From: Fermentimonas sp.
Lineage (GTDB): Bacteria > Bacteroidota > Bacteroidia > Bacteroidales > Dysgonomonadaceae
NCBI GenBank assembly: GCA_028709385.1
Contig: JAQVXD010000022.1
Location: 1 to 43,827, forward strand
Direction of reading: 5' to 3'
Length of the DNA stretch: 43,827 nt
A model generated the notes under the pieces. That model made no database searches. It worked only from the letters and a program-made list of their open reading frames with translations, and had not been told where the DNA came from. A program made the translations under genes and the position numbers. The stretch's first letter is position 1. Each line of letters opens with the position of its first letter. This document shows, one piece after another, positions 6,018-43,827 of the stretch.

Positions 6018-7517
6018 TTATTTAAGACTGACAAGGCGGTTGTTGTTTCTAGCTGTTTCAAGCCATTTGGGGACTACATTTTCCTGGAAGTTTTTCTTGT
6101 TTGTATTCTCCATTTCCATGTCGAGTCCTATATATTCCTGCGCTTTTGCTTTGGTTGATACATCAGGCAGCGGAACATCTCCGGTAAAGCCGATTTCAGC
6201 AAGTACTTTCGATATTTCAAAACGTGCTTTGTGTGCACGGTCGAGACTTAAAGAAAGTATCCTCTGATATTCCACCGGTGAGTGGAATGAACCTCCATGT
6301 GAAGCTACAGCATAATCCCAGCGCCATTGTGATTGACGAATCAGTTGCAGTGCATCGTTCATCTGTGCTTCAGTTGCTCCTTTTTCCCAGGCAAACTGTG
6401 CTTCGAGATGAGCAGCGGAAAGTTCTTTTTCAACAAGATTGCGTATCTGATTTGCACTGCGCTGACGTTCGTAAACTGAGTTTCTAAGATCCTCTTCTGT
6501 CTCACGGTGACACACCTGGCAGGTGTTGTTCATGCTGGCCAGCGGACTTCTAACGTGGTGACTGCTGTACTTTATACCGCCTTCTGAAGTGTATGGCATG
6601 TGACAATCGGCACAGGAAACACCTCTTTGGGCATGGATTCCGGTTTTAAAGATTTCGTAATCGGGATGCTGTGCTTTAATTATTGGTGCTTTGCTTAATG
6701 CATGTGTGTAGTCTGCAAACTGAATACTGTCATAGTACTGTTCAGCTCCTTCCATTGTCATTCCGTTGTGCCAGGGGAAAATAAGATATTTGCCTTCGGG
6801 AGTGAAGTAATATTCAACATGACATTGTGCACAGGCAAGTGAACGCATATCCTGATGTGAGGACTCCTGAATATTCATTCCCATAGATTCGTAACCTTCA
6901 ATAAGAGCAGGGCGGCTGATTTGCAGGTCCATAGTCTCAGCATTATGGCAGTCGGCACAACCTATCGGATTCACGATCTCATGTCCCCAGTGTGCCCACG
7001 GTTTATTATAGAATTCTGCTACACCTACTGAGTCCATTAATCGAGGTACATCAGGGCTCTTACATGTCCAGCAGGTGGCCGGTTGTGGCCCATCTTCAGC
7101 TGTCATTGGCGATCCGGTGCGTAATGTGTGAACAACATCATCTATAGCATGCATGTGCCCTCTTGGAGTTCCGTAATCTTTTGAGAAAGCGTAGCCTGCC
7201 CATAGAATAACCATTTCGGGGCGTTGTTCAAGAACGTCAACTATACTGCTGCCATTAAACTCACTTTGAAAAGTAGTGTCAGCTGTCTGTGTCCAAGACT
7301 CATATTGACGTGGAAAGTCTGTTGCGAAAATTTCACTTCTCGATTCGATGCCGGTGATGTCAACCATTCTGTTGTACATCATGCTGGTGATTTCTGCTCT
7401 TCGCTGAGTGATGGATGCTGCCAGCATACCAAGCAGGAAAACTACTCCTATAGTAACAAAAAATAGTAACCAGCCAACCCAGGGCTTCATCTTGTTTTTG
7501 TCTTGCTTATTGCTCAT
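6018..7517 (-). CDS. nrfA: Ammonia-forming cytochrome c nitrite reductase, catalytic subunit
   Basis: This 499-residue periplasmic pentahaem protein reduces nitrite to ammonium with six electrons. The active-site haem is bound by CWTCK (149-153), with lysine replacing histidine, which is diagnostic for NrfA. Four normal sites follow: CADCH (187-191), CAQCH (229-233), CADCH (302-306) and CQVCH (333-337). An N-terminal hydrophobic segment (about 13-35) could be an uncleaved signal anchor. nrfH lies 40 bp upstream and ccsB 22 bp downstream. CXXCK attachment in many bacteria needs a dedicated lyase. None is seen here apart from CcsBA, which is usual for Bacteroidetes nrf operons. Confidence 0.97.
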   Translation of the reverse strand: MSNKQDKNKMKPWVGWLLFFVTIGVVFLLGMLAASITQRRAEITSMMYNRMVDITGIESRSEIFATDFPRQYESWTQTADTTFQSEFNGSSIVDVLEQRPEMVILWAGYAFSKDYGTPRGHMHAIDDVVHTLRTGSPMTAEDGPQPATCWTCKSPDVPRLMDSVGVAEFYNKPWAHWGHEIVNPIGCADCHNAETMDLQISRPALIEGYESMGMNIQESSHQDMRSLACAQCHVEYYFTPEGKYLIFPWHNGMTMEGAEQYYDSIQFADYTHALSKAPIIKAQHPDYEIFKTGIHAQRGVSCADCHMPYTSEGGIKYSSHHVRSPLASMNNTCQVCHRETEEDLRNSVYERQRSANQIRNLVEKELSAAHLEAQFAWEKGATEAQMNDALQLIRQSQWRWDYAVASHGGSFHSPVEYQRILSLSLDRAHKARFEISKVLAEIGFTGDVPLPDVSTKAKAQEYIGLDMEMENTNKKNFQENVVPKWLETARNNNRLVSLK

Positions 7518-35901: not shown

Positions 35902-36168
35902 ATGAATAAATCAGAACTAATTAGCGCTATTGCAGAGAAATCTGGTCTTAGCAAAGTTGACTCCAAAAAAGCATTGGACGCAACCTTAGAAACAATTTCG
36001 GAAGAAGTAAAAGCCGGTGGCAAGGTAGTATTAGTAGGTTTTGGAACATTCTCTGTTTCAGAAAGAAGTGCAAGAAAAGGTATCAACCCACGCACAAAAC
36101 AACCTATCAATATTCCAGCTAAGAAAACAGCTAAGTTTAAAGCCGGTTCAGAACTTTCAAATCTCTAA
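35902..36168 (+). CDS. hup: HU-family nucleoid DNA-binding protein
   Basis: This 88-residue basic protein has the full HU pattern: SELISAIAEKSGLSKVDSKKALDA, the VVLVGFGTF turn, the DNA-inserting arm with GINPRTKQPINIPA, and the KFKAGSEL ending. It binds and bends DNA as a dimer. A strong terminator follows 18 bp after the stop, so it is monocistronic. Confidence 0.96.
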   Translation: MNKSELISAIAEKSGLSKVDSKKALDATLETISEEVKAGGKVVLVGFGTFSVSERSARKGINPRTKQPINIPAKKTAKFKAGSELSNL

Positions 36169-36185
36169 GGATGTTGACTCGGAAT

Positions 36186-36222
36186 AAAAAAGGAACAAAC
36201 TTTTTAGTTTTGTTCCTTTTTT
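36186..36222 (+). terminator. Rho-independent terminator of the HU gene
   Basis: A-rich arm AAAAAGGAACAAA pairs with TTTTGTTCCTTTTT around a short T-rich loop, ending in a T-run. It lies directly after the HU stop and before tRNA-Lys. Confidence 0.85.
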
Positions 36223-36258
36223 ATTTTCAGAATTAATGTACCTTTGCGGTCAGTTTAT

Positions 36259-36331
36259 GACTCCGTAGCTCAGCTGGTAGAGCAATTGACTCTTAATCAA
36301 TGGGTCGAGGGTTCGAGTCCCTCCGGGGTCA
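36259..36331 (+). tRNA. tRNA-Lys (anticodon CTT)
   Basis: The 73-nt cloverleaf has acceptor GACTCCG/CGGGGTC (with one T-G wobble), D-arm GCTC/GAGC, anticodon arm ATTGA-CTCTTAA-TCAAT and T-arm GAGGG-TTCGAGT-CCCTC. The loop gives anticodon CTT (lysine codon AAG). CCA is not encoded. Confidence 0.97.
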
Positions 36332-36342
36332 CATTGATTATA

Positions 36343-36380
36343 AGGCACTTATAAGTTTATACTTATAGGTGCTTTGTTGT
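36343..36380 (+). terminator. Terminator after tRNA-Lys
   Basis: Arms AGGCACTTATAAGT and ACTTATAGGTGCTT pair along 14 positions with two G-T wobbles around a TTAT loop, followed by TGTTGTTT. Confidence 0.7.
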
Positions 36381-36381
36381 T

Positions 36382-36401
36382 TAGTCGAGCTCTAGTCGAG
36401 C
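36382..36401 (+). repeat. Direct repeat of TAGTCGAGC
   Basis: Two exact 9-base copies are separated by TC, just after the tRNA-Lys terminator. They could be arm-type integrase sites or chance. Confidence 0.4.
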
Positions 36402-36742
36402 AATCACCCCAAAAAATTAATAGCTGCATTATTCAAATATTAAACTGATACTGTTTATTTTATTGAAAATGCTGACGGTACGTAAAAAAGGATTGGTATA
36501 AGGTAAACAGTTCTTTTCCTTTTGTTTATATAATTATATTTAGTAGGTTTGTAGTATTATTATTACTAATCATGAAAAACTTTATTTATATATGAAGAAT
36601 CTAAAGTGCAGAAGTAGCAAAAAAAGATAAAGCAGAATGTGAAACAACCGGAAAAACTCTTCGAATTGTAAGAGGTATAAAATGATTTTAAGATTTTTAA
36701 TTTAATTGACTTGATGAAAATATCAAAAAAATGAGAATTAGT

Positions 36743-37114
36743 ATGAAAAGAAAAATTGTGTTTCTAGTTATAATTTGTTTAGCTGTACTAATCTCGTGTG
36801 ACGATGAAAAATTGGATAATCCGATGATAAATACGGAATGGATGGAAATAACTAATACTTATTCGTTTCAATTTTCTGAAGAATTAGTTGCGATTAAAGT
36901 AAAAGATAAAACGGTTTATATATTGTCTTATATTTTTGATGACGGTAAAATATTTGCTCAAGGAGGAAAAAATTACAACGATAGAGATATTTATTTTACA
37001 GCAGAGATTAATGAAGGTGATGAGTATGGAATAAATGTCGGCCAAGAGTATCTCTTACTAATAGAAAACGGAGTATCATCCACTATCAAAAATGAAAAAT
37101 ATTATAAGAAATGA
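36743..37114 (+). CDS. Small lipoprotein of unknown function
   Basis: This 123-residue protein has a lipoprotein signal from Met at 36743 (MKRKIVFLVIICLAVLISC, lipid Cys19). DDE directly after the cysteine resembles the acidic lipoprotein export signal that sends Bacteroidetes lipoproteins to the cell surface. The rest is acidic beta-type sequence with no family I recognise. An upstream ATG at 36731 adds four residues. It is AT-rich compared with its neighbours and overlaps the next gene by 23 bp. Its place in an insert after a tRNA suggests acquired DNA. Confidence 0.65.
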   Translation: MKRKIVFLVIICLAVLISCDDEKLDNPMINTEWMEITNTYSFQFSEELVAIKVKDKTVYILSYIFDDGKIFAQGGKNYNDRDIYFTAEINEGDEYGINVGQEYLLLIENGVSSTIKNEKYYKK

Positions 37115-37547
37115 ATTTATAACCGTAATGGTTTTCGTATTATTCCTTTGTGTGAATAATATATCCCTTGCACAGCAAAAGGGACCGATAGTACGGATTT
37201 CAGAAATTGAGGTGTACCCTCAATATTTAGAAGAATATAAAGCAATACTCCAATATGAAGCAGAAGCATCGGTTAGACTTGAAGAAGGTGTTATTGCTAT
37301 CTTCCCGATGTTCCAAAAGGACAACGCTACACAGGTGCGGATATTGGAAATCTATTACGACCAGAAAGCCTATCAATCCCACTTGTTAACAGAACATTTC
37401 CAACAGTACAAGACCGGTACGCTCCACATGGTCAAATCATTGAAACTTGTAGATATGGATGCGCTTGATTTAGAAACGGCCTCCCGGATTTTCTGTAAAA
37501 TGCCTCATCAACAACCCGGAACGTATGGTCATACTGGCGCCCGGTGA
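37092..37547 (+). CDS. Secreted ABM-domain (quinol-monooxygenase-like) protein with altered C-terminus
   Basis: This 151-residue protein has a signal peptide (about 1-28, cut after SLAQ) and an ABM domain (about 34-125), with ISEIEVYPQYLEEYK, EEGVIAIFPMFQ, RILEIYYDQKAYQSHL and FQQYKTGTLHMVKSLKLVD. Homologues usually end soon after that last motif. Here about 25 further residues (from ALDLETAS to the stop) look unrelated. The +1 frame over the same bases is open and looks more coding-like, so the end may be a fusion with a decayed gene. Function is not known beyond the family. Confidence 0.7.
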   Translation: MKNIIRNEFITVMVFVLFLCVNNISLAQQKGPIVRISEIEVYPQYLEEYKAILQYEAEASVRLEEGVIAIFPMFQKDNATQVRILEIYYDQKAYQSHLLTEHFQQYKTGTLHMVKSLKLVDMDALDLETASRIFCKMPHQQPGTYGHTGAR

Positions 37548-37590
37548 ACCATATACTCTGAAGCTGATTAAAGATGTCGATAAACATTAG
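37474..37590 (+). pseudogene. Possible frameshifted tail of a lost gene
   Basis: In the +1 frame relative to the ABM gene, 38 codons run without a stop to TAG at 37588 and read like a normal protein end (PERMVILAPGEPYTLKL, then IKDVDKH). No start or full gene is present. I could not name the parent family. Confidence 0.35.
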
Positions 37591-37598
37591 GATGTTTT

Positions 37599-39605
37599 TT
37601 ATCTTCTCCTCATCATTTGCATTAGTCCTCCTCCATTTTTTACATTTGTGTAACCCATTTGCCTTAGTAATTGCTGAGCATATGCCGAGCGGGCACCCGA
37701 AGCGCAGTAAAGAGTGATATCACGATCCTTGCTGCCAAGCTCATCTATCTTTGTTTCTAATTCATCTAACGAAATGTTGATGGCATTAGGATATGCTCCG
37801 CCTAAAAATTCCACAGGTGTGCGAACGTCAACCACTAATGGTGTATTGCCATTAATCGATACAGAAGAGTCTTTTTTCTCATCCATAACAATATCTTCCC
37901 TGGTCTCATCTACCGTTTTCTTTTCCACTTTTGGTAAATTTACCCGAAAGTTTTGGAACCCGGTAGCATAGGCTTGGCGCTGTAATGAGATGAACCCTCC
38001 TGAAATATTATACACACTATCCACACCTGAATTTTTGAGCATGCGCAGCGCTTGGTGACCTTTCTTGCCAGTTTCGTCGTAAACTAAAATACTGGAATCT
38101 TTAGGGATCGCATTAAGTTCCTCATGAAGCATTTCCAAAGGCACATTGTAGGCACCGACGATATTTCCTTTTTCAAACGAAAACATGTCACGCACATCAA
38201 TTACAATCGGTTTGTAAACTTTTACCCATTCATCCAACTCGCCTACTGTTATTGAGGAACTGAATCCGCTTTTCTGATTTTCGGCAGTATAAGCAGCCAT
38301 GTTAATGACATCATTAGCCGTTCCAAGTGGAGGAGAATAAGCAAAATCGATGTCTGCCAGATCATGGATAGTGAGATTACCTGCAATTGCAGCTGCTATT
38401 ACGTCGAGACGGCGGTCGGCCCCCTTGTACCCTGCAGTTTGTCCCCCCAGCACAGCTCCCGTTTCGGTATTGTAAACCAGCATCACAGAAACATTTTCTG
38501 CTCCCGGATAATAAGCAGTGTGATGCTCTTTATGTACAACTACTGCATCCGCAGGAATACCTTCAGCAAGTGCTTGTTTAAGAGACAGACCCGTGATCCC
38601 TGCAACAGCTTCAAATACACGAAGTATAGATGTTCCCATTGAACCATTGTAGGCATGCTTGCCTCCCATTATATTTTCGGCTGCAATCCTTCCCTGACGA
38701 TTGGCAGGTCCTGCAAGCGGAATTCTAACCCTTTTGCCTGATACCCGGTTTTCTACCTCCACCATATCTCCTGCAGCATAAATATGTTCATCTGAAGTTT
38801 GCAAGTATTCATTAACAAGTAAACCTCCTGATTCGCCAATTTCAAGACCAGCCTCAGTTGCAAGTTGCAAAGTAGGGCGAACTCCAATCGACATCAGCAC
38901 CATTTCGGCATTTATAATAGTGCCGTCTTTTAATTTTACCGATTTTGGTGTAATCCCTGTCACACTCTTTCCCGTATGAATATTCACTCCATATGAAAGC
39001 ATTTCCTGTTCAATAAATCCTGCGGTTTCAGCATCCATCACAGACATCACGTGCGGCATCATCTCAACCAGATGCACATTCAACTCACGTTTCACTAACG
39101 CTTCAACCATCTCAAGACCGATAAAACCACCACCTATTACGACTGCGTTCTTGGGCGATTTTTCTTCAATGTGCCGATGTATATTGTCCATATCATTTAG
39201 CGTCCATAAAGTATAGACATGGTCAAGATCAGCACCCTCAATCTTGGGCTTAATCGGGCGTCCCCCCTGCGCCAGCAGCAGTTTGTCATATTTGTGATTC
39301 CTGATCTCTCCGGTTCTGACGTTCAAAGATGTAACTGTTTTGTTTTGTCTGTCAATGCCGGTGATACGTGTGTTCACCTGTACATCCACCTGATATTGTT
39401 CGTAGAAGCTTTCAGGACTTTGCAGAATCAATTTTGAACGACTTTTGATGTCGCCACCAATATAGTAAGGCAGACCACAATTGGCAAAAGAAATGTCGGG
39501 CCCTGCTTCAAACATCGTGATACTTGCATCGGACGAAAGTCGGCGTACCTTTGCTGCAGCTGTTGCTCCTGCGGCTACACCGCCCACAATAATTATTTTT
39601 TCCAT
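37599..39605 (-). CDS. CoA-disulfide/polysulfide reductase with two rhodanese domains
   Basis: The Met at 39605 gives MEKIIIVGGVAAGATAAAKV, the FAD-binding start; the frame extends 23 residues further upstream without similarity. The 668-residue enzyme has the CoADR/Npsr flavoprotein core with active Cys43 (FANCGLPYYIGG), the NAD-binding GGGFIGLE (158-165), the second FAD motif IYAAGD (275-280) and the dimer domain tyrosines (365-366 and 423). Two rhodanese domains follow. The first (about 455-545) has Asp510 where the catalytic cysteine should be. The second (about 585-665) has Cys634 in the normal CASGARS loop. The family reduces CoA-disulfide, CoA-persulfide or polysulfide with NAD(P)H. 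Confidence 0.9.
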   Translation of the reverse strand: MEKIIIVGGVAAGATAAAKVRRLSSDASITMFEAGPDISFANCGLPYYIGGDIKSRSKLILQSPESFYEQYQVDVQVNTRITGIDRQNKTVTSLNVRTGEIRNHKYDKLLLAQGGRPIKPKIEGADLDHVYTLWTLNDMDNIHRHIEEKSPKNAVVIGGGFIGLEMVEALVKRELNVHLVEMMPHVMSVMDAETAGFIEQEMLSYGVNIHTGKSVTGITPKSVKLKDGTIINAEMVLMSIGVRPTLQLATEAGLEIGESGGLLVNEYLQTSDEHIYAAGDMVEVENRVSGKRVRIPLAGPANRQGRIAAENIMGGKHAYNGSMGTSILRVFEAVAGITGLSLKQALAEGIPADAVVVHKEHHTAYYPGAENVSVMLVYNTETGAVLGGQTAGYKGADRRLDVIAAAIAGNLTIHDLADIDFAYSPPLGTANDVINMAAYTAENQKSGFSSSITVGELDEWVKVYKPIVIDVRDMFSFEKGNIVGAYNVPLEMLHEELNAIPKDSSILVYDETGKKGHQALRMLKNSGVDSVYNISGGFISLQRQAYATGFQNFRVNLPKVEKKTVDETREDIVMDEKKDSSVSINGNTPLVVDVRTPVEFLGGAYPNAINISLDELETKIDELGSKDRDITLYCASGARSAYAQQLLRQMGYTNVKNGGGLMQMMRRR

Positions 39606-39649
39606 ATATATCTTTATAGTTTTCTTTTTGATTGATTTTAAATCTTGTG

Positions 39650-39657
39650 CAAAAGTA
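39650..39657 (-). promoter_or_regulatory. Candidate -7 box of the CoADR gene
   Basis: The reverse strand reads TACTTTTG, an exact TAnnTTTG match, 45 bp before the ATG. The dyad at 39665-39684 covers the -33 side. Confidence 0.45.
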
Positions 39658-39664
39658 CAAAGAA

Positions 39665-39684
39665 ATATGTACATACGTTCATAT
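39665..39684. promoter_or_regulatory. ArsR/SmtB-like operator candidate upstream of CoADR
   Basis: The 20-mer ATATGTACATACGTTCATAT is symmetric in eight of ten pairs. Read on the reverse strand it has the ATATGAAC...CATAT form seen in ArsR/SmtB-type operators. It adjoins the -7 box, where a repressor would block transcription. ArsR-type proteins (BigR/SqrR) control rhodanese and sulfide genes in other bacteria. No ArsR gene is in the window. Confidence 0.4.
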
Positions 39685-39764
39685 GTTATATAAAGAGTAT
39701 TGATGGGTTATTGATGTATATTATTAGTTGATTAAATTTTATTTCACCCATATCCCGTATATGT

Positions 39765-39838
39765 TCCGCTTATGTCCGGCTTATATCCGGCTTATATCAT
39801 CTCCTATATTTAATAAGGTAAACATAGCCCGGATATAA
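39765..39838. repeat. Tandem and inverted TCCGGCTTATA-type repeats
   Basis: TCCGCTTATG (39765-39774) is followed by two exact copies of TCCGGCTTATA (39775-39785 and 39786-39796). An inverted partner CCGGATATAA (39829-39838) matches TTATATCCGG (39781-39790) exactly. The repeats occupy the divergent spacer between the CoADR and patatin genes. Their role is unknown; an operator array is one option. Confidence 0.6.
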
Positions 39839-39921
39839 ACAGAATATATACCTTTTAATACTGATTTTACATTGAGTCACTGACGTCTCAATTTATAATA
39901 AATATGTTTATATTTGTATAT

Positions 39922-42171
39922 ATGAAAAAACGACTCGCTATAACATTACTCTTCTTGTCACTTTTGATTGCTGTTTTTGCTCAGGAAGTTCATCAGGACT
40001 CAATCCACATACATGATCAGCAGCGAAAAAAGGTGGGTGTGGTTTTGAGCGGAGGCGGAGCAAAAGGGTTTGCTCATGTGGGGGTATTAAAAGTACTTGA
40101 AGAATTTGGTATCCCGATTGATTATATTGCAGGCACCAGTATGGGGGCTGTCGTGGGTGGTCTTTATGCTTTGGGCTACACTACAGATATGATCGACTCG
40201 TTGATACAGGTCCAAGACTGGAATCATTTGATGAGCGACAATTCTTATAGAGAAAATATACCTGCTTCGAGGCGAAATGACCAAAGCAGGTATGTGGTGT
40301 CACTGCCCTACCAAATACCTTTTGGCAGTGAATCAGGCGGAGTGTCACTACCAGCCGGGGTATATACCGGTCAGAATATTAATAATCTTTTCCTGAATTC
40401 AACAATCGGATATCATAATAACATCAGTTTTGATGATCTGCCTATACCTTTCGGTTGCATTTCCGCCGATGTGCGTTCCGGTGAGGAGATCGCCATGCGC
40501 GAAGGAAATCTTGCAGAGGCAATACGTGCAAGTATGGCAATACCGGGAATGTTTACTCCCGTGGAGAAAGACAGCATGCTGCTTATTGACGGCGGTGTGA
40601 TTAATAACTACCCGGTGGATCTGGTTCGTGAGATGGGTGCAGATATCGTTATAGGTGTTATTTTTCCTATTGATAAAGATGAAATTGAACAAAGCAGAGG
40701 CACCATCTCAGAGATAACCCAGCAGATATGGAATTTCATTGGTCAGGAAAAACGTAGCAGCAATATCTTGGATACCGATATTTTGATTACTCCGGATGTT
40801 TATCCTTACGGAATGCTCGATTTCCAGAGACCGGCTATTGACAGTATTATTTCTAGGGGAGTAACAGCTGCATTTGAAAACAGGGACAAGCTTATTAATC
40901 TAAAAGAATTACTTAGCATTGCTGAGTCTTCGGATGTCTCTTTAGCCTTGAGCAACCCCTACATTAACCTTGATACGCTGATTATCAATAATATTTTTGT
41001 GGAGGGTATCACACAAAGGGAGAGAGGCTATCTGAACAGGTGGATATATATTGATGAAAAAAAGATTACCAGGTCTGAACTAAACGAGATGATTTCGAAA
41101 ATATATGGCAGTGGTATGTTTACCAATGTTAATTACAGACTTGTAGGAACCAATCCATTTGACCTGATTTTGGACGTGGAAGTGAAGAAATCCAACCATT
41201 TAAACCTGGGTATACATTTCGACACTAATGATATGGCGGCAATTCTAGCAAATACCACGATACGGCTTAACAGTTCGCTCAATTCAATGTTTGATATTAC
41301 GACAAGGCTTAGCCGTGATCCATATCTTATTATTGATTACTCTATCAACAGAGGAATATTTTTCAAAGGTGGAATTAATTACAAAATCAGTAAAAACGAT
41401 CTTAGTTTCTATGACAGAGGAGTGCTGTCATACAACCTTGGGGTTACAAAAAACTCCCTTAATCTGGTATTTTCTGAATTTTACTTTGGGAATATAATGC
41501 TGCACCTGGGTGCTCAAATGGAACATTTTCATTTTTACAAAGCTATGGGCAGTATTTTTGATCCGCCACAGTCTGAGTTGAAAGATCAGCTATATTTTAA
41601 TTATCTGCTCAACGGTGTGTATGATAACCTCAACACTGTTTATTTTCCCACATCCGGTCAATATTTTTCATTTCAGTACTCACTGCATACTGATAATTTT
41701 GTGAGTCTGGAGGATGAAGCCCCTTTGAGTGTGGTCAGAATGAATTTCTTCAAGCCCTTTGCAATTAGTGAAGATGTGTATCTTACACCACGCGTGACAG
41801 CCCGATATGCTTTGAATGACAGTGTACCCCGTATGTACCGAAACCTGGTGGGCGGAAGAATTGATAGTCATTATATGCCTCAGCAGATATCACTTCAGGG
41901 GTCAACCGGAATGGAGTTTATGGGAAACATGGTGCTTTCTGCCGATGTTACCCTCCATTATAATTTCACCAGAAATAACTATCTGTATACCAATCTGAAT
42001 TTTACAGCACACAACAATCACCTCCACACACTGTTTGAAGGTGAATCGTTCCTCGGTATTAATATGGGTTACTCCTACATGACGGTTGCGGGACCATTGC
42101 GACTTGAGTTTGGATATTCAGGCCTCTCCCGGCGGTTTCACCCTTACGTCAGCTACGGCTATTATTTCTGA
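39922..42171 (+). CDS. Patatin-like phospholipase fused to an Omp85-type barrel (type Vd-like)
   Basis: From Met at 39922 the 749-residue protein has a signal peptide (about 1-20, cut at VFAQ) and a patatin domain (about 37-330). The patatin domain has the oxyanion glycines GGGAKG (44-49), nucleophile Ser73 in GTSMG and Asp223 in DGG. A POTRA-like segment (about 345-425, with KITRSELNEMISKIYGSGMF) and a 16-strand Omp85/BamA-type barrel to the C-terminal aromatic (SYGYYF) follow. This is the layout of PlpD-type proteins that secrete or display a lipase through their own barrel. It is divergent to CoADR and lies 144 bp before dsrE2. A functional link to sulfur is not evident. Confidence 0.88.
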   Translation: MKKRLAITLLFLSLLIAVFAQEVHQDSIHIHDQQRKKVGVVLSGGGAKGFAHVGVLKVLEEFGIPIDYIAGTSMGAVVGGLYALGYTTDMIDSLIQVQDWNHLMSDNSYRENIPASRRNDQSRYVVSLPYQIPFGSESGGVSLPAGVYTGQNINNLFLNSTIGYHNNISFDDLPIPFGCISADVRSGEEIAMREGNLAEAIRASMAIPGMFTPVEKDSMLLIDGGVINNYPVDLVREMGADIVIGVIFPIDKDEIEQSRGTISEITQQIWNFIGQEKRSSNILDTDILITPDVYPYGMLDFQRPAIDSIISRGVTAAFENRDKLINLKELLSIAESSDVSLALSNPYINLDTLIINNIFVEGITQRERGYLNRWIYIDEKKITRSELNEMISKIYGSGMFTNVNYRLVGTNPFDLILDVEVKKSNHLNLGIHFDTNDMAAILANTTIRLNSSLNSMFDITTRLSRDPYLIIDYSINRGIFFKGGINYKISKNDLSFYDRGVLSYNLGVTKNSLNLVFSEFYFGNIMLHLGAQMEHFHFYKAMGSIFDPPQSELKDQLYFNYLLNGVYDNLNTVYFPTSGQYFSFQYSLHTDNFVSLEDEAPLSVVRMNFFKPFAISEDVYLTPRVTARYALNDSVPRMYRNLVGGRIDSHYMPQQISLQGSTGMEFMGNMVLSADVTLHYNFTRNNYLYTNLNFTAHNNHLHTLFEGESFLGINMGYSYMTVAGPLRLEFGYSGLSRRFHPYVSYGYYF

Positions 42172-42200
42172 TTTTTACACTCACACTTTTGTTGCATGAG

Positions 42201-42220
42201 TATGTGACTTATGTCACATA
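42201..42220. promoter_or_regulatory. Perfect-arm Crp-type operator upstream of the dsrE2 operon
   Basis: The dyad TATGTGAC-TTAT-GTCACATA has perfect 8-base arms and contains TGTGA-N6-TCACA, the classical Crp/HcpR-type form. Outer CAT (42195-42197) and ATG (42224-42226) are symmetric around the same centre. It lies 96 bp before the dsrE2 ATG. A TTAATTTG box (42274-42281, one base off TAnnTTTG) would put it near -74, a class I type position. Confidence 0.65.
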
Positions 42221-42315
42221 TTTATGTAGGGAGTCTCACGTGCCAAAAGGAGATTAATAAAAGAAATATTTCCTTAATTTGCTTGTAATTAATTAACAAA
42301 ATAATATCGGGCTTT

Positions 42316-42807
42316 ATGGAGAATTCAAAAGAAGATCAATTGTCTGTAGCTATCATTTCCGGCGATATGGATAAAATCATGGCGGTGATGATAATTTCAC
42401 TTGCTGCTGCTGCCATGGATACCAAGGTGAAACTGTTTTTTTCGTTCTGGGCTATCGGAGCCCTGCGCGATCCAAAGAAAAAAGCTAAAGGGAAGAATTT
42501 TATTTCAAAAATGTTTGGAATGATGTTGCCAAAAGGGAAAAATAAGCTGAAACTCTCAAAATTCAACATGATGGGAATGGGACCGGCAATGATGAAAGGT
42601 CTTATGAAACAGCAGGGAGTGATGTCTCTTGACGAGATGTTTAAGCAGGCAGGAGAACTGGGTGTGGAAATAACCGTTTGCGAAATGACTATGAACCTGA
42701 TGGGATTTAAGAAAGAGGAGATTATTGATTATCCTCACCTGCGTTATGCCGGAGCAGGAACATTTGTTGTAGATGCTGGAGAAAGTGCTATGCAATGGAT
42801 GGTTTAA
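42316..42807 (+). CDS. DsrE2-type (DsrE/F/H-like) sulfur-carrier protein
   Basis: This 163-residue protein of the DsrE_2 group has the opening VAIISGDMDKIMAVMIISLAAAAMD (in pieces: VAIISGDMDKIM and AAAMDTKVKLFFSFWAIGAL), a Met/Lys-rich middle (about 55-105) and the conserved cysteine in EITVCEMTMNLMG (Cys122). Proteins of this group carry sulfane sulfur on that cysteine and pass it to TusA, as shown for DsrE homologues in sulfur oxidisers. It is first in an operon with tusA 42 bp downstream. A hydrophobic N-terminal helix may associate with the membrane. The direction of sulfur flow here is unknown. Confidence 0.87.
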   Translation: MENSKEDQLSVAIISGDMDKIMAVMIISLAAAAMDTKVKLFFSFWAIGALRDPKKKAKGKNFISKMFGMMLPKGKNKLKLSKFNMMGMGPAMMKGLMKQQGVMSLDEMFKQAGELGVEITVCEMTMNLMGFKKEEIIDYPHLRYAGAGTFVVDAGESAMQWMV

Positions 42808-42849
42808 AAACAATTAGATTAAAATTATAATAAACTAAACTTTACAACT

Positions 42850-43101
42850 ATGACTACAGAAGAATTAAAGAAAATTACCGTTTCAAAATCAGTTGACGCC
42901 CGCGGAACAGCGTGTCCAGGACCACTGCTGGAAGCTAAAAAAGCTATTGGAACCATCGGTTCGGGTGATATAATGGAAATTCTTTCGGCAGATGAAGGTA
43001 CTAAATCGGATATCCCTAAATGGTGCGGAAAGCAGGGCCATGAGTATCTTGGCGCTTTGGAAGAAAACGGATATTTTAAAGTGTATATGAAGAAAAAATG
43101 A
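42850..43101 (+). CDS. tusA: TusA-family sulfur carrier protein
   Basis: This 83-residue protein has the SirA/TusA core DARGTACPGPLLEAKKAI, with the persulfide-carrying Cys22 in CPGP. The usual beta-alpha-beta-alpha order follows, with a second cysteine (59, in WCGKQGHEY). The pairing with a DsrE2 protein is the standard sulfur relay of Dsr and sHdr systems. It overlaps the next gene by four bases (ATGA). Confidence 0.92.
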   Translation: MTTEELKKITVSKSVDARGTACPGPLLEAKKAIGTIGSGDIMEILSADEGTKSDIPKWCGKQGHEYLGALEENGYFKVYMKKK

Positions 43102-43514
43102 CAGGCAACTTTAATAAGAGTGCAAAAATTCTTGTCTTTTCGACAGAGAAGATTTCAGATCCGGCTATTGATATGGCCGGACTGCTGAAATTGCATTATC
43201 CGCCTACCGTCTACACTATTACACTTCCTTGCTCAAGTGGTATTAAGCCGGGCTGGATTCTTCATGCCTTTGAAAAGGGGTTCGATGGTGTTTTTATCGC
43301 AGCTGACGGGAGTGACTGTGTTTACGGAGAGACTTGTACCGAGAAAACAGGTAATTTGGTATCGGCTGCGCATGAACAGATGAAAGCAAGAGATATTGAA
43401 CCAGCACGTCTGCGTATGGCAGCTATCTGCTCTGTGTGCAGCGAAGCATTTGTAAAGCAGATTCGCAGTTTTAATGAATACTTGATAAAAACCTTACACG
43501 CACAAGAGATATGA
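43098..43514 (+). CDS. FlpD/MvhD-like hydrogenase iron-sulfur subunit
   Basis: This 138-residue protein matches the MvhD/FlpD family, which accepts electrons and passes them to HdrA. Visible are LPCSSGIKPGWILHAFEKGFDGVFIAA (Cys45 and the GFDGVFIA helix, given here in part), GSDCVYGETC (Cys74, Cys80) and SVCSEAF (Cys111, Cys114). The N-terminal CxxC usually found in MvhD is absent, so the cluster set differs from the archaeal protein. Both ends overlap neighbours by ATGA (with tusA and hdrA), so expression is tightly coupled. The electron donor is not shown in the window. Confidence 0.82.
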   Translation: MTGNFNKSAKILVFSTEKISDPAIDMAGLLKLHYPPTVYTITLPCSSGIKPGWILHAFEKGFDGVFIAADGSDCVYGETCTEKTGNLVSAAHEQMKARDIEPARLRMAAICSVCSEAFVKQIRSFNEYLIKTLHAQEI

Positions 43515-43827
43515 GTAGTGAGATCAAAACAATAAAATATGATGCCCTTGTTGTGGGAGCCGGCATTGCCGGAGGCGAAGCTTCACTTAACCTGGCAAAC
43601 TCAGGATATAAAGTATTGTTGGTTGAGAAAGAGCGTTCCATCGGGGGAAAGATGATATTACTGAGTAAGGTTTTCCCGACACTTGACTGCTCCGCGTGTA
43701 TCACCACTCCTAAAATATCTGAAATAGCACGTTATAAAAATATTACAATCTTCACAGAGAGTGAGGTTACCGATATTTCCAAAAGAGCAGATAATGATTT
43801 TGTTGCACATATCACTAAAAAACCTCG
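43511..43827 (+). CDS. hdrA: HdrA-like FAD/iron-sulfur oxidoreductase, N-terminal part (runs off right edge)
   Basis: The first 105 codons are present. They show the FAD-binding VVGAGIAGGEAS (14-25), VEKERSIGGKM (38-48) and the HdrA-type cluster motif LDCSACITTPKI (58-69, Cys60 and Cys63). This is the start of a heterodisulfide-reductase subunit A homologue, close also to QmoA. HdrA bifurcates or relays electrons between FlpD/MvhD and a partner such as HdrBC. The start overlaps the upstream stop as ATGA. Later domains and any hdrBC genes lie beyond the window. Confidence 0.88.
   Translation, partial: MSSEIKTIKYDALVVGAGIAGGEASLNLANSGYKVLLVEKERSIGGKMILLSKVFPTLDCSACITTPKISEIARYKNITIFTESEVTDISKRADNDFVAHITKKP

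Follow-up and report, generated by a model that had tools for sequence, protein, structure and literature searches.

Four genes lie on the forward strand at the 3′ end of the window, by which we mean the whole 43,827-nucleotide stretch of Fermentimonas sp. DNA that was analysed. The first (42316..42807) encodes a DsrE2-family sulfur carrier of 163 residues with a single invariant cysteine, Cys122, and the second (42850..43101) encodes TusA, an 83-residue sulfur carrier whose Cys22 sits in a CPGP motif. They are followed by a 138-residue FlpD/MvhD-like subunit (43098..43514), which carries a C-terminal CxxC (C111, C114) and is without the N-terminal CxxC of MvhD, and by the first 105 residues of an HdrA-like flavoprotein (43511..43827). 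As the window is an entire contig (G000:C45), it ends within HdrA, the rest of which is found on contig C16 (locus L040). DsrE2 and TusA are separated by a 42-bp gap, after which come two 4-bp overlaps (TusA/FlpD and FlpD/HdrA). An initial annotation, made from the letters of this DNA, had read the same four frames, overlaps and cysteines, and the ORF list, Pfam searches and alignments confirmed all of them, coordinates included.

The Pfam matches (DrsE_2, 142.6 bits; TusA, 78.8 bits; FlpD, 95.9 bits) each exceed the gathering score. The HdrA fragment gives 113.4 bits against NCBIfam hetero_SS_HdrA2, whose cut-off of 1100 applies to the whole protein; full-length homologues of the short form are mostly 431–443 residues long. 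Against the NCBIfam DsrE2 equivalog the window protein reaches 61.6 bits, below the cut-off of 210, and its nearest solved structures by sequence are 3pnx and 2qs7. The Cys122 column is cysteine in 69 of 69 aligned sequences and the Cys22 column in 97 of 97, the columns being counted from reference proteins on contig C109 that start 25 (DsrE2) and 21 (TusA) residues longer. Membership of the DrsE_2 family together with one strictly conserved cysteine makes this DsrE2 DsrE2B-like on both counts, unlike subgroup DsrE2A, which is described with two conserved cysteines (PMC4175335).

A seven-gene operon with a QmoC-like subunit

Contig C16 of the same genome starts with 223 bp that match window positions 43605–43827 at 99.1% identity (two mismatches), and we infer that it follows C45. 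On C16, HdrA continues to base 1214 and is followed by a 573-residue HdrA2, a 92-residue winged-helix protein and a 352-residue QmoC-like protein, with a convergent Crp/Fnr-family gene beyond. The closest relative, G023, whose DNA is 89.3% identical to the window over 4093 bp, carries the identical gene order uninterrupted on one contig. The order on C16 and the synteny in G023 thus define an operon of seven genes, DsrE2-TusA-FlpD-HdrA-HdrA2-wHTH-QmoC-like, of which the window holds the front end. Pfam searches of the operon proteins encoded by the window and C16 found no hydrogenase (MvhA/MvhG) and no HdrB (CCG), and a methanogen-type hydrogenase–Hdr set was rejected on this ground. The view of the initial annotation stopped within HdrA; with HdrA2, the winged-helix protein and a QmoC-like membrane subunit in place, the picture of a soluble Hdr system becomes one of a Qmo-like membrane complex.

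Both HdrA and HdrA2 align along most of their length with methanogen HdrA from solved complexes. The CSxC motif region is kept in HdrA and lost in HdrA2, which retains the N-terminal CHCG part. A tree was built from 42 HdrA-like proteins, with 11 rows each for the operon's HdrA and HdrA2. Each of these two forms one group (97/99 and 100/100) with matching inner grouping, and the canonical Qmo rows (one QmoA, two QmoB) fall outside both; some references sit on long branches and the Qmo references are few, which leaves the deep branching order uncertain. At its N-terminus the QmoC-like protein resembles HdrC, and over nearly its full length it matches NCBIfam qmoC, at 146.8 bits and under the cut-off of 300. 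Eight cluster-type cysteines and His142, 145, 215, 315 and 334 are invariant or more than 90% conserved in this subunit. A Foldseek search with its model (mean pLDDT 78) returned nothing at E ≤ 0.001, HdrC ranking top and NarI and EtfD lower.

The winged-helix protein has an ArsR/SmtB-like predicted fold (pLDDT 87; best Foldseek E 2.8e-4), and the conservation alignment shows no conserved cysteine in it. It is homologous to a domain fused at the end of HdrA2 elsewhere (hhalign probability 98.6, L053), which is present in 13 HdrA2 proteins (L053–L059, L150, L155, L156, L165, L169, L175). Judged by this homology, it is probably a subunit of the complex and not merely a regulator. HdrA also varies: 13 loci (L051–L059, L150, L156, L165, L175) have an inserted NAD(P)H domain in it, identified as GltD-like in the L053 protein, and of these loci 11 also have the winged-helix domain fused to HdrA2 and two are cut by contig ends. 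Short and long HdrA forms are both present within the window's genus. All 77 sequences of the Crp/Fnr-family regulator have cysteines at positions 6, 9 and 106, and 99% have one at 142, a pattern that we take to be reminiscent of FNR. Truncated or odd-length rows were excluded by length from the conservation alignments. Several loci of the window's genus (L042, L043, L044, L054 and others) have, by reading, a thioredoxin reductase, a thioredoxin-like small gene and a second Crp-like gene beside the regulator; the thioredoxin-like small gene had no Pfam match.

Another full operon set is present in the window's own assembly, on contig C109 (L003). Over 16,001 bp, C109 shares 99.88% identity with G013, a genome from another species of the genus that itself has a single FlpD match, whereas the window DNA adjoining the operon is only 67% identical to G013 where alignable. 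A true second copy was rejected for this reason. C109 is probably a misbinned contig, contamination being the simplest account, and may alternatively represent a very recent transfer. The genome is estimated to be 88% complete with 2.44% contamination, and since C109 is probably misbinned, genome-wide counts for G000 may include foreign genes.

Conservation of the operon in Bacteroidales

Among 61 genomes (the window's own and relatives), 22 have an FlpD match at E ≤ 1e-3, 19 of them close (at least 57% identity) and three weak. Within the window's genus a close match occurs in 14 of 37 genomes, own included; the operon is absent from a 4.4 Mb one-contig genome of the genus and is therefore accessory. 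In an even draw of 393 Bacteroidales the FlpD profile was found in 72 genomes at E ≤ 1e-15 and in 68 at E ≤ 1e-35, and a phylum-wide draw, mostly of other orders, gave 5 of 395 at E ≤ 1e-15, with the own genome included in each count.

Named genome contigs yielded at least 486 encoding stretches, of which the best 80 were kept; loci other than the window and C16 were annotated with the operon's own proteins as queries. Labels in these best 80 of at least 486 loci are Bacteroidota in 79 and include two strains of the isolate Seramator thermalis (L065, L104); L132 is labelled Candidatus Theseobacter exili. In 78 of the same 80 gene strings TusA precedes FlpD, and in 77 a DsrE-family gene does. 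Three of them (L068, L102, L132) begin close to a contig edge, and L070 is without a detected TusA. Because the best 80 loci are the nearest relatives, we also sampled the even draw of the order: of its 68 genomes that have this FlpD, 40 contributed one further locus each, every one under a different family label. By rule-based scoring, DsrE and TusA stand upstream of FlpD in 39 of the 40, and the downstream genes are present in 38 (HdrA), 37 (HdrA2) and 36 (QmoC-like), with the complete set in 34; among the rule failures, contig ends truncate L176 and L179, and L167 fails only by start-codon choice. With the arrangement kept in 39 of 40 sampled loci, a chance neighbourhood was rejected. A Crp/Fnr-family gene (at least 150 bits) lies divergently on the DsrE side in 27 of these 40; Crp and CDR matches below 150 bits were omitted from the gene strings and are shown question-marked in one listing of the 80 loci.

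Outside the order, L190 and L191 have TusA-FlpD-HdrA-HdrA2-HTH-QmoC-like, and profiles detect a DsrE-family ORF immediately after the QmoC-like gene at each locus, with a further one ahead of TusA in L191; the operon unit thus extends beyond Bacteroidales. On the metagenome contig L112, HdrA and HdrA2 are split into several broken ORFs, through either sequencing error or decay. The initial annotation had made its sulfur system depend on the genes past position 43827 and on whether the synteny was unique to this contig. Downstream lie the rest of HdrA, HdrA2, the winged-helix gene and the QmoC-like gene rather than a methanogen-type hydrogenase–Hdr set, and the DsrE-TusA-FlpD-HdrA unit is conserved across Bacteroidales, so neither of the outcomes it had held against the system occurred.

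Control loci and the cysteines of FlpD

Ten same-phylum loci with other FlpD, HdrA or QmoABC-like genes (L192–L201) served as controls. Neither TusA nor DsrE was found in any of the ten with single queries at E ≤ 1e-4, nor with profiles of TusA and three DsrE families at E ≤ 1, L198 spanning only 4 kb. The cysteines of FlpD differ as well. In alignments, methanogen MvhD has an N-terminal CxxC, a CSG cysteine and a DC cysteine; the N-terminal CxxC is absent from 138 of 138 operon-family FlpD proteins, the CS and DC cysteines are retained in the conservation alignment, and a C-terminal CxxC (ICSVC and alike) is present in 138 of 138. These 138 combine three partly overlapping sets, with FlpD below 90 bits or 120 residues left out; three of them have CSSC at the CS site, which is not the N-terminal CxxC.

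The TusA-linked outgroup FlpD proteins of L190 and L191 also have the C-terminal CxxC (2/2) and have lost the CSG and DC cysteines too, whereas none of ten control FlpD units (seven free, three fused; nine loci) has a C-terminal CxxC. The CxxC is therefore the site that travels with TusA linkage. Taken together, the control loci and the cysteine change link this complex to the sulfur carriers. We infer that the C-terminal CxxC of FlpD receives or reduces sulfane sulfur; alternatively, in Bacteroidales it could form part of a rebuilt iron-sulfur site.

Proposed function and relation to known systems

The operon very probably encodes a Qmo/Hdr-like membrane oxidoreductase with a sulfur-carrier partner. 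With modest confidence we favour the fuller reading, in which this complex would reduce TusA/DsrE-borne sulfane sulfur to sulfide. DsrE2 Cys122 and TusA Cys22 would carry the sulfane sulfur as persulfide, a chemistry taken from relatives of these two families. The carrier would then dock on FlpD, whose lineage-specific CxxC would take up or reduce the sulfane sulfur. Electrons are predicted, by homology, to move between FlpD and the flavin and iron-sulfur pair HdrA/HdrA2. The QmoC-like subunit, with its HdrC-type clusters and a membrane part that bears histidines, would connect this pair with the quinone pool, in either direction; in the variant that has the GltD-like domain in HdrA, NAD(P)H may enter there. 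Most likely, persulfide derived from S0 or polysulfide would be turned into sulfide as an anoxic electron sink under the Crp/Fnr-type regulator. More tentatively, the complex could act as an oxidoreductase between sulfane sulfur and quinone (or NAD(P)H), with TusA/DsrE2 persulfide going to the remade FlpD CxxC rather than to HdrB; it would then be a Psr-independent sulfur reductase of Bacteroidales and a new respiratory complex.

Ten operon-bearing genomes were searched for other enzymes of sulfur and nitrogen metabolism. Three have a molybdopterin oxidoreductase (two NarG, one of DMSO-reductase type and unsure function) and seven, the window's own (88% complete) among them, have none; no candidate for a molybdopterin polysulfide or thiosulfate reductase was found in nine of the ten, some of which are incomplete. 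NIR_SIR occurs in one of the ten. Other known sulfur-reducing routes are therefore few. The remark in the initial annotation that no dsrAB was seen extends to the own genome, in which, at 88% completeness, no siroheme sulfite reductase domain was found. It had also called the host nitrite-respiring, and nitrite ammonification is plausible: at 6018–7517 the window encodes NrfA, a cytochrome c nitrite reductase that forms ammonia, with a score that passes the NCBIfam cut-off. The menD gene scores above cut-off in six of the ten, with one more as a contig fragment, so that by this one route a menaquinone partner is not assured in all. A CoA-disulfide reductase-like protein with two C-terminal rhodanese domains (37599–39674, below the NCBIfam cut-off) is encoded two genes upstream of the operon and is a possible persulfide or polysulfide enzyme. 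It was rejected as part of the system because its distance from the operon is some 9 kb greater in G023; a match of at least 150 bits near the operon was found in none of the best 80 of at least 486 loci and in one of the 40 sampled (L143).

Petrimonas sulfuriphila belongs to the same family as the window organism. It is described as reducing S0 to H2S (PMC5940944), and reduction to sulfide would fit this phenotype at least as well as withdrawal of electrons from persulfide. The operon's first genes are present in a MAG labelled Petrimonas sp. (L079), which links the operon to that genus rather than to P. sulfuriphila itself. The HdrB (CCG) subunit is the known disulfide-reducing site, and its lack among the operon proteins stands against the favoured reading. 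Clear CCG proteins are encoded elsewhere in three of the ten operon-bearing genomes (G651, G058, G038); in the seven genomes of the window's family the domain is absent or weak, the own genome having one weak match (2.7e-6) in a 950-residue frame. Reduction of S0 by menaquinol alone is also uphill, and a low-potential donor or an energy input would be needed.

The main idea of the initial annotation was the opposite direction, in which TusA/DsrE2 persulfide would feed electrons through FlpD-HdrA to menaquinone and on to nitrite reduction by NrfA. Electron flow from persulfide to menaquinone is downhill, NrfA is present in seven of the ten operon-bearing genomes, the window's included, and other reports of DsrE-TusA-Hdr linkage concern sulfur oxidisers (PMC4175335). 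We nevertheless consider an oxidative run rather doubtful, as the lack of HdrB among the operon proteins and of NIR_SIR in nine of ten genomes leaves no known sulfite-making enzyme, NrfA is absent from three of the ten, and the reported sulfur phenotype of the family is S0 reduction (PMC5940944). What stands of the earlier proposal is a single conserved operon tied to sulfur carriers; for its electron flow from persulfide, the reverse fits at least as well.

Thiol or persulfide housekeeping, with thiols regenerated or reactive sulfur species detoxified by NAD(P)H and no energy conserved, would suit the GltD-like NAD(P)H domain of one HdrA variant and the thioredoxin reductase and thioredoxin-like genes that, by reading, adjoin the regulator in several loci of the window's genus. 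It is unlikely, given that a QmoC-like membrane subunit is encoded downstream in 36 of 40 sampled loci (contig ends truncate some of the remainder) and that an occurrence in 68 of 393 genomes is patchy for a housekeeping function. That TusA and DsrE2 merely share the operon with an Hdr-type complex that acts on some unrelated substrate and receives their sulfur for building its Fe-S clusters or cofactors seems very unlikely: the complex has many Fe-S sites, and NifX-like, DUF134 and DUF89 genes (labels by reading) recur in some loci, but ten other FlpD/HdrA/Qmo loci are without TusA and DsrE, and the cysteines of FlpD vary with carrier linkage.

The favoured reading, reduction of carrier-borne sulfane sulfur by a Qmo/Hdr-like membrane complex, has parts in common with several known systems. 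Like canonical QmoABC, the operon encodes two HdrA-type flavoproteins and an MvhD-type unit, and its QmoC-like protein may correspond to the QmoC-type HdrC–cytochrome fusion. It differs in that FlpD is a separate ORF of 138 residues, whereas L196 has an MvhD-like unit fused to the end of QmoB, in its DsrE/TusA genes and extra winged-helix protein, and in HdrA and HdrA2 grouping apart from the QmoA and QmoB rows of the tree of 42. By reading, aprAB was not seen among the translated ORFs at window positions 36000–43827 and on C16. As a separate observation, L196 (G043:C54, 5841–12634) reads as aprB-aprA-qmoA-qmoB(MvhD-fused)-qmoC in a Bacteroidales genome that is 99% complete and that has a TusA-FlpD-HdrA operon elsewhere (L048). 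Type II Qmo is described as nearer to HdrA than to QmoAB, with a role that is open and calls for experiments (PMC10504309); we liken the operon to it by that description.

In the sHdr system of sulfur oxidisers, tusA-dsrE2 is linked to hdrC1B1AhyphdrC2B2 (PMC4175335). DsrE-family and TusA carriers are likewise encoded here beside an Hdr-like complex (39 of 40 sampled loci), and in place of HdrB1/HdrB2 (CCG) there are two HdrA-like proteins, FlpD and a membrane QmoC-like subunit. FlpD, HdrA and the HdrC-type sequence are homologous to parts of methanogen MvhAGD-HdrABC (5odc), from which the operon differs by its proteins without hydrogenase or HdrB, its membrane part and its changed FlpD cysteine pattern. 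The HdrA/HdrL of Desulfurivibrio dismutans resembles the long variant in having an NAD(P)H-binding domain added to an HdrA-type protein and an adjoining MvhD gene, and lies, unlike it, beside formate dehydrogenase and Wood–Ljungdahl genes, with no adjoining TusA/DsrE mentioned in the available parts of the report (PMC12142623). The YTD cluster of sulfur disproportionators also joins TusA with a DsrE-family gene in anaerobes, and is described as yedE, tusA, dsrE and conserved hypotheticals, without an Hdr or Qmo-like complex (PMC12998232, in its available parts). TusA near Hdr genes in Cloacimonadota was interpreted as oxidation (PMC8542988), and the asr locus adjoins hdr, with Bacteroidota among its carriers (PMC9040765). 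The operon is not described in the available portions of PMC12998232, PMC12142623, PMC4911364, PMC8542988, PMC4846661, PMC5684752, PMC11664143, PMC10991894, PMC8470020, PMC9040765, PMC10266427 and PMC13293266. In literature outside most subscription papers and all preprints we found no published description of it, nothing on FlpD together with TusA, and nothing joining the sulfur reduction of P. sulfuriphila with a genome.

The proposal points to single residues that can be tested: FlpD C111 and C114, TusA C22 and DsrE2 C122. One branch of the Qmo/HdrA-like complexes, a group with a role described as open in PMC10504309, may be explained by this operon. It is a concrete and widely distributed candidate for an elemental-sulfur-reducing (or -oxidising) enzyme of anaerobic Bacteroidales.
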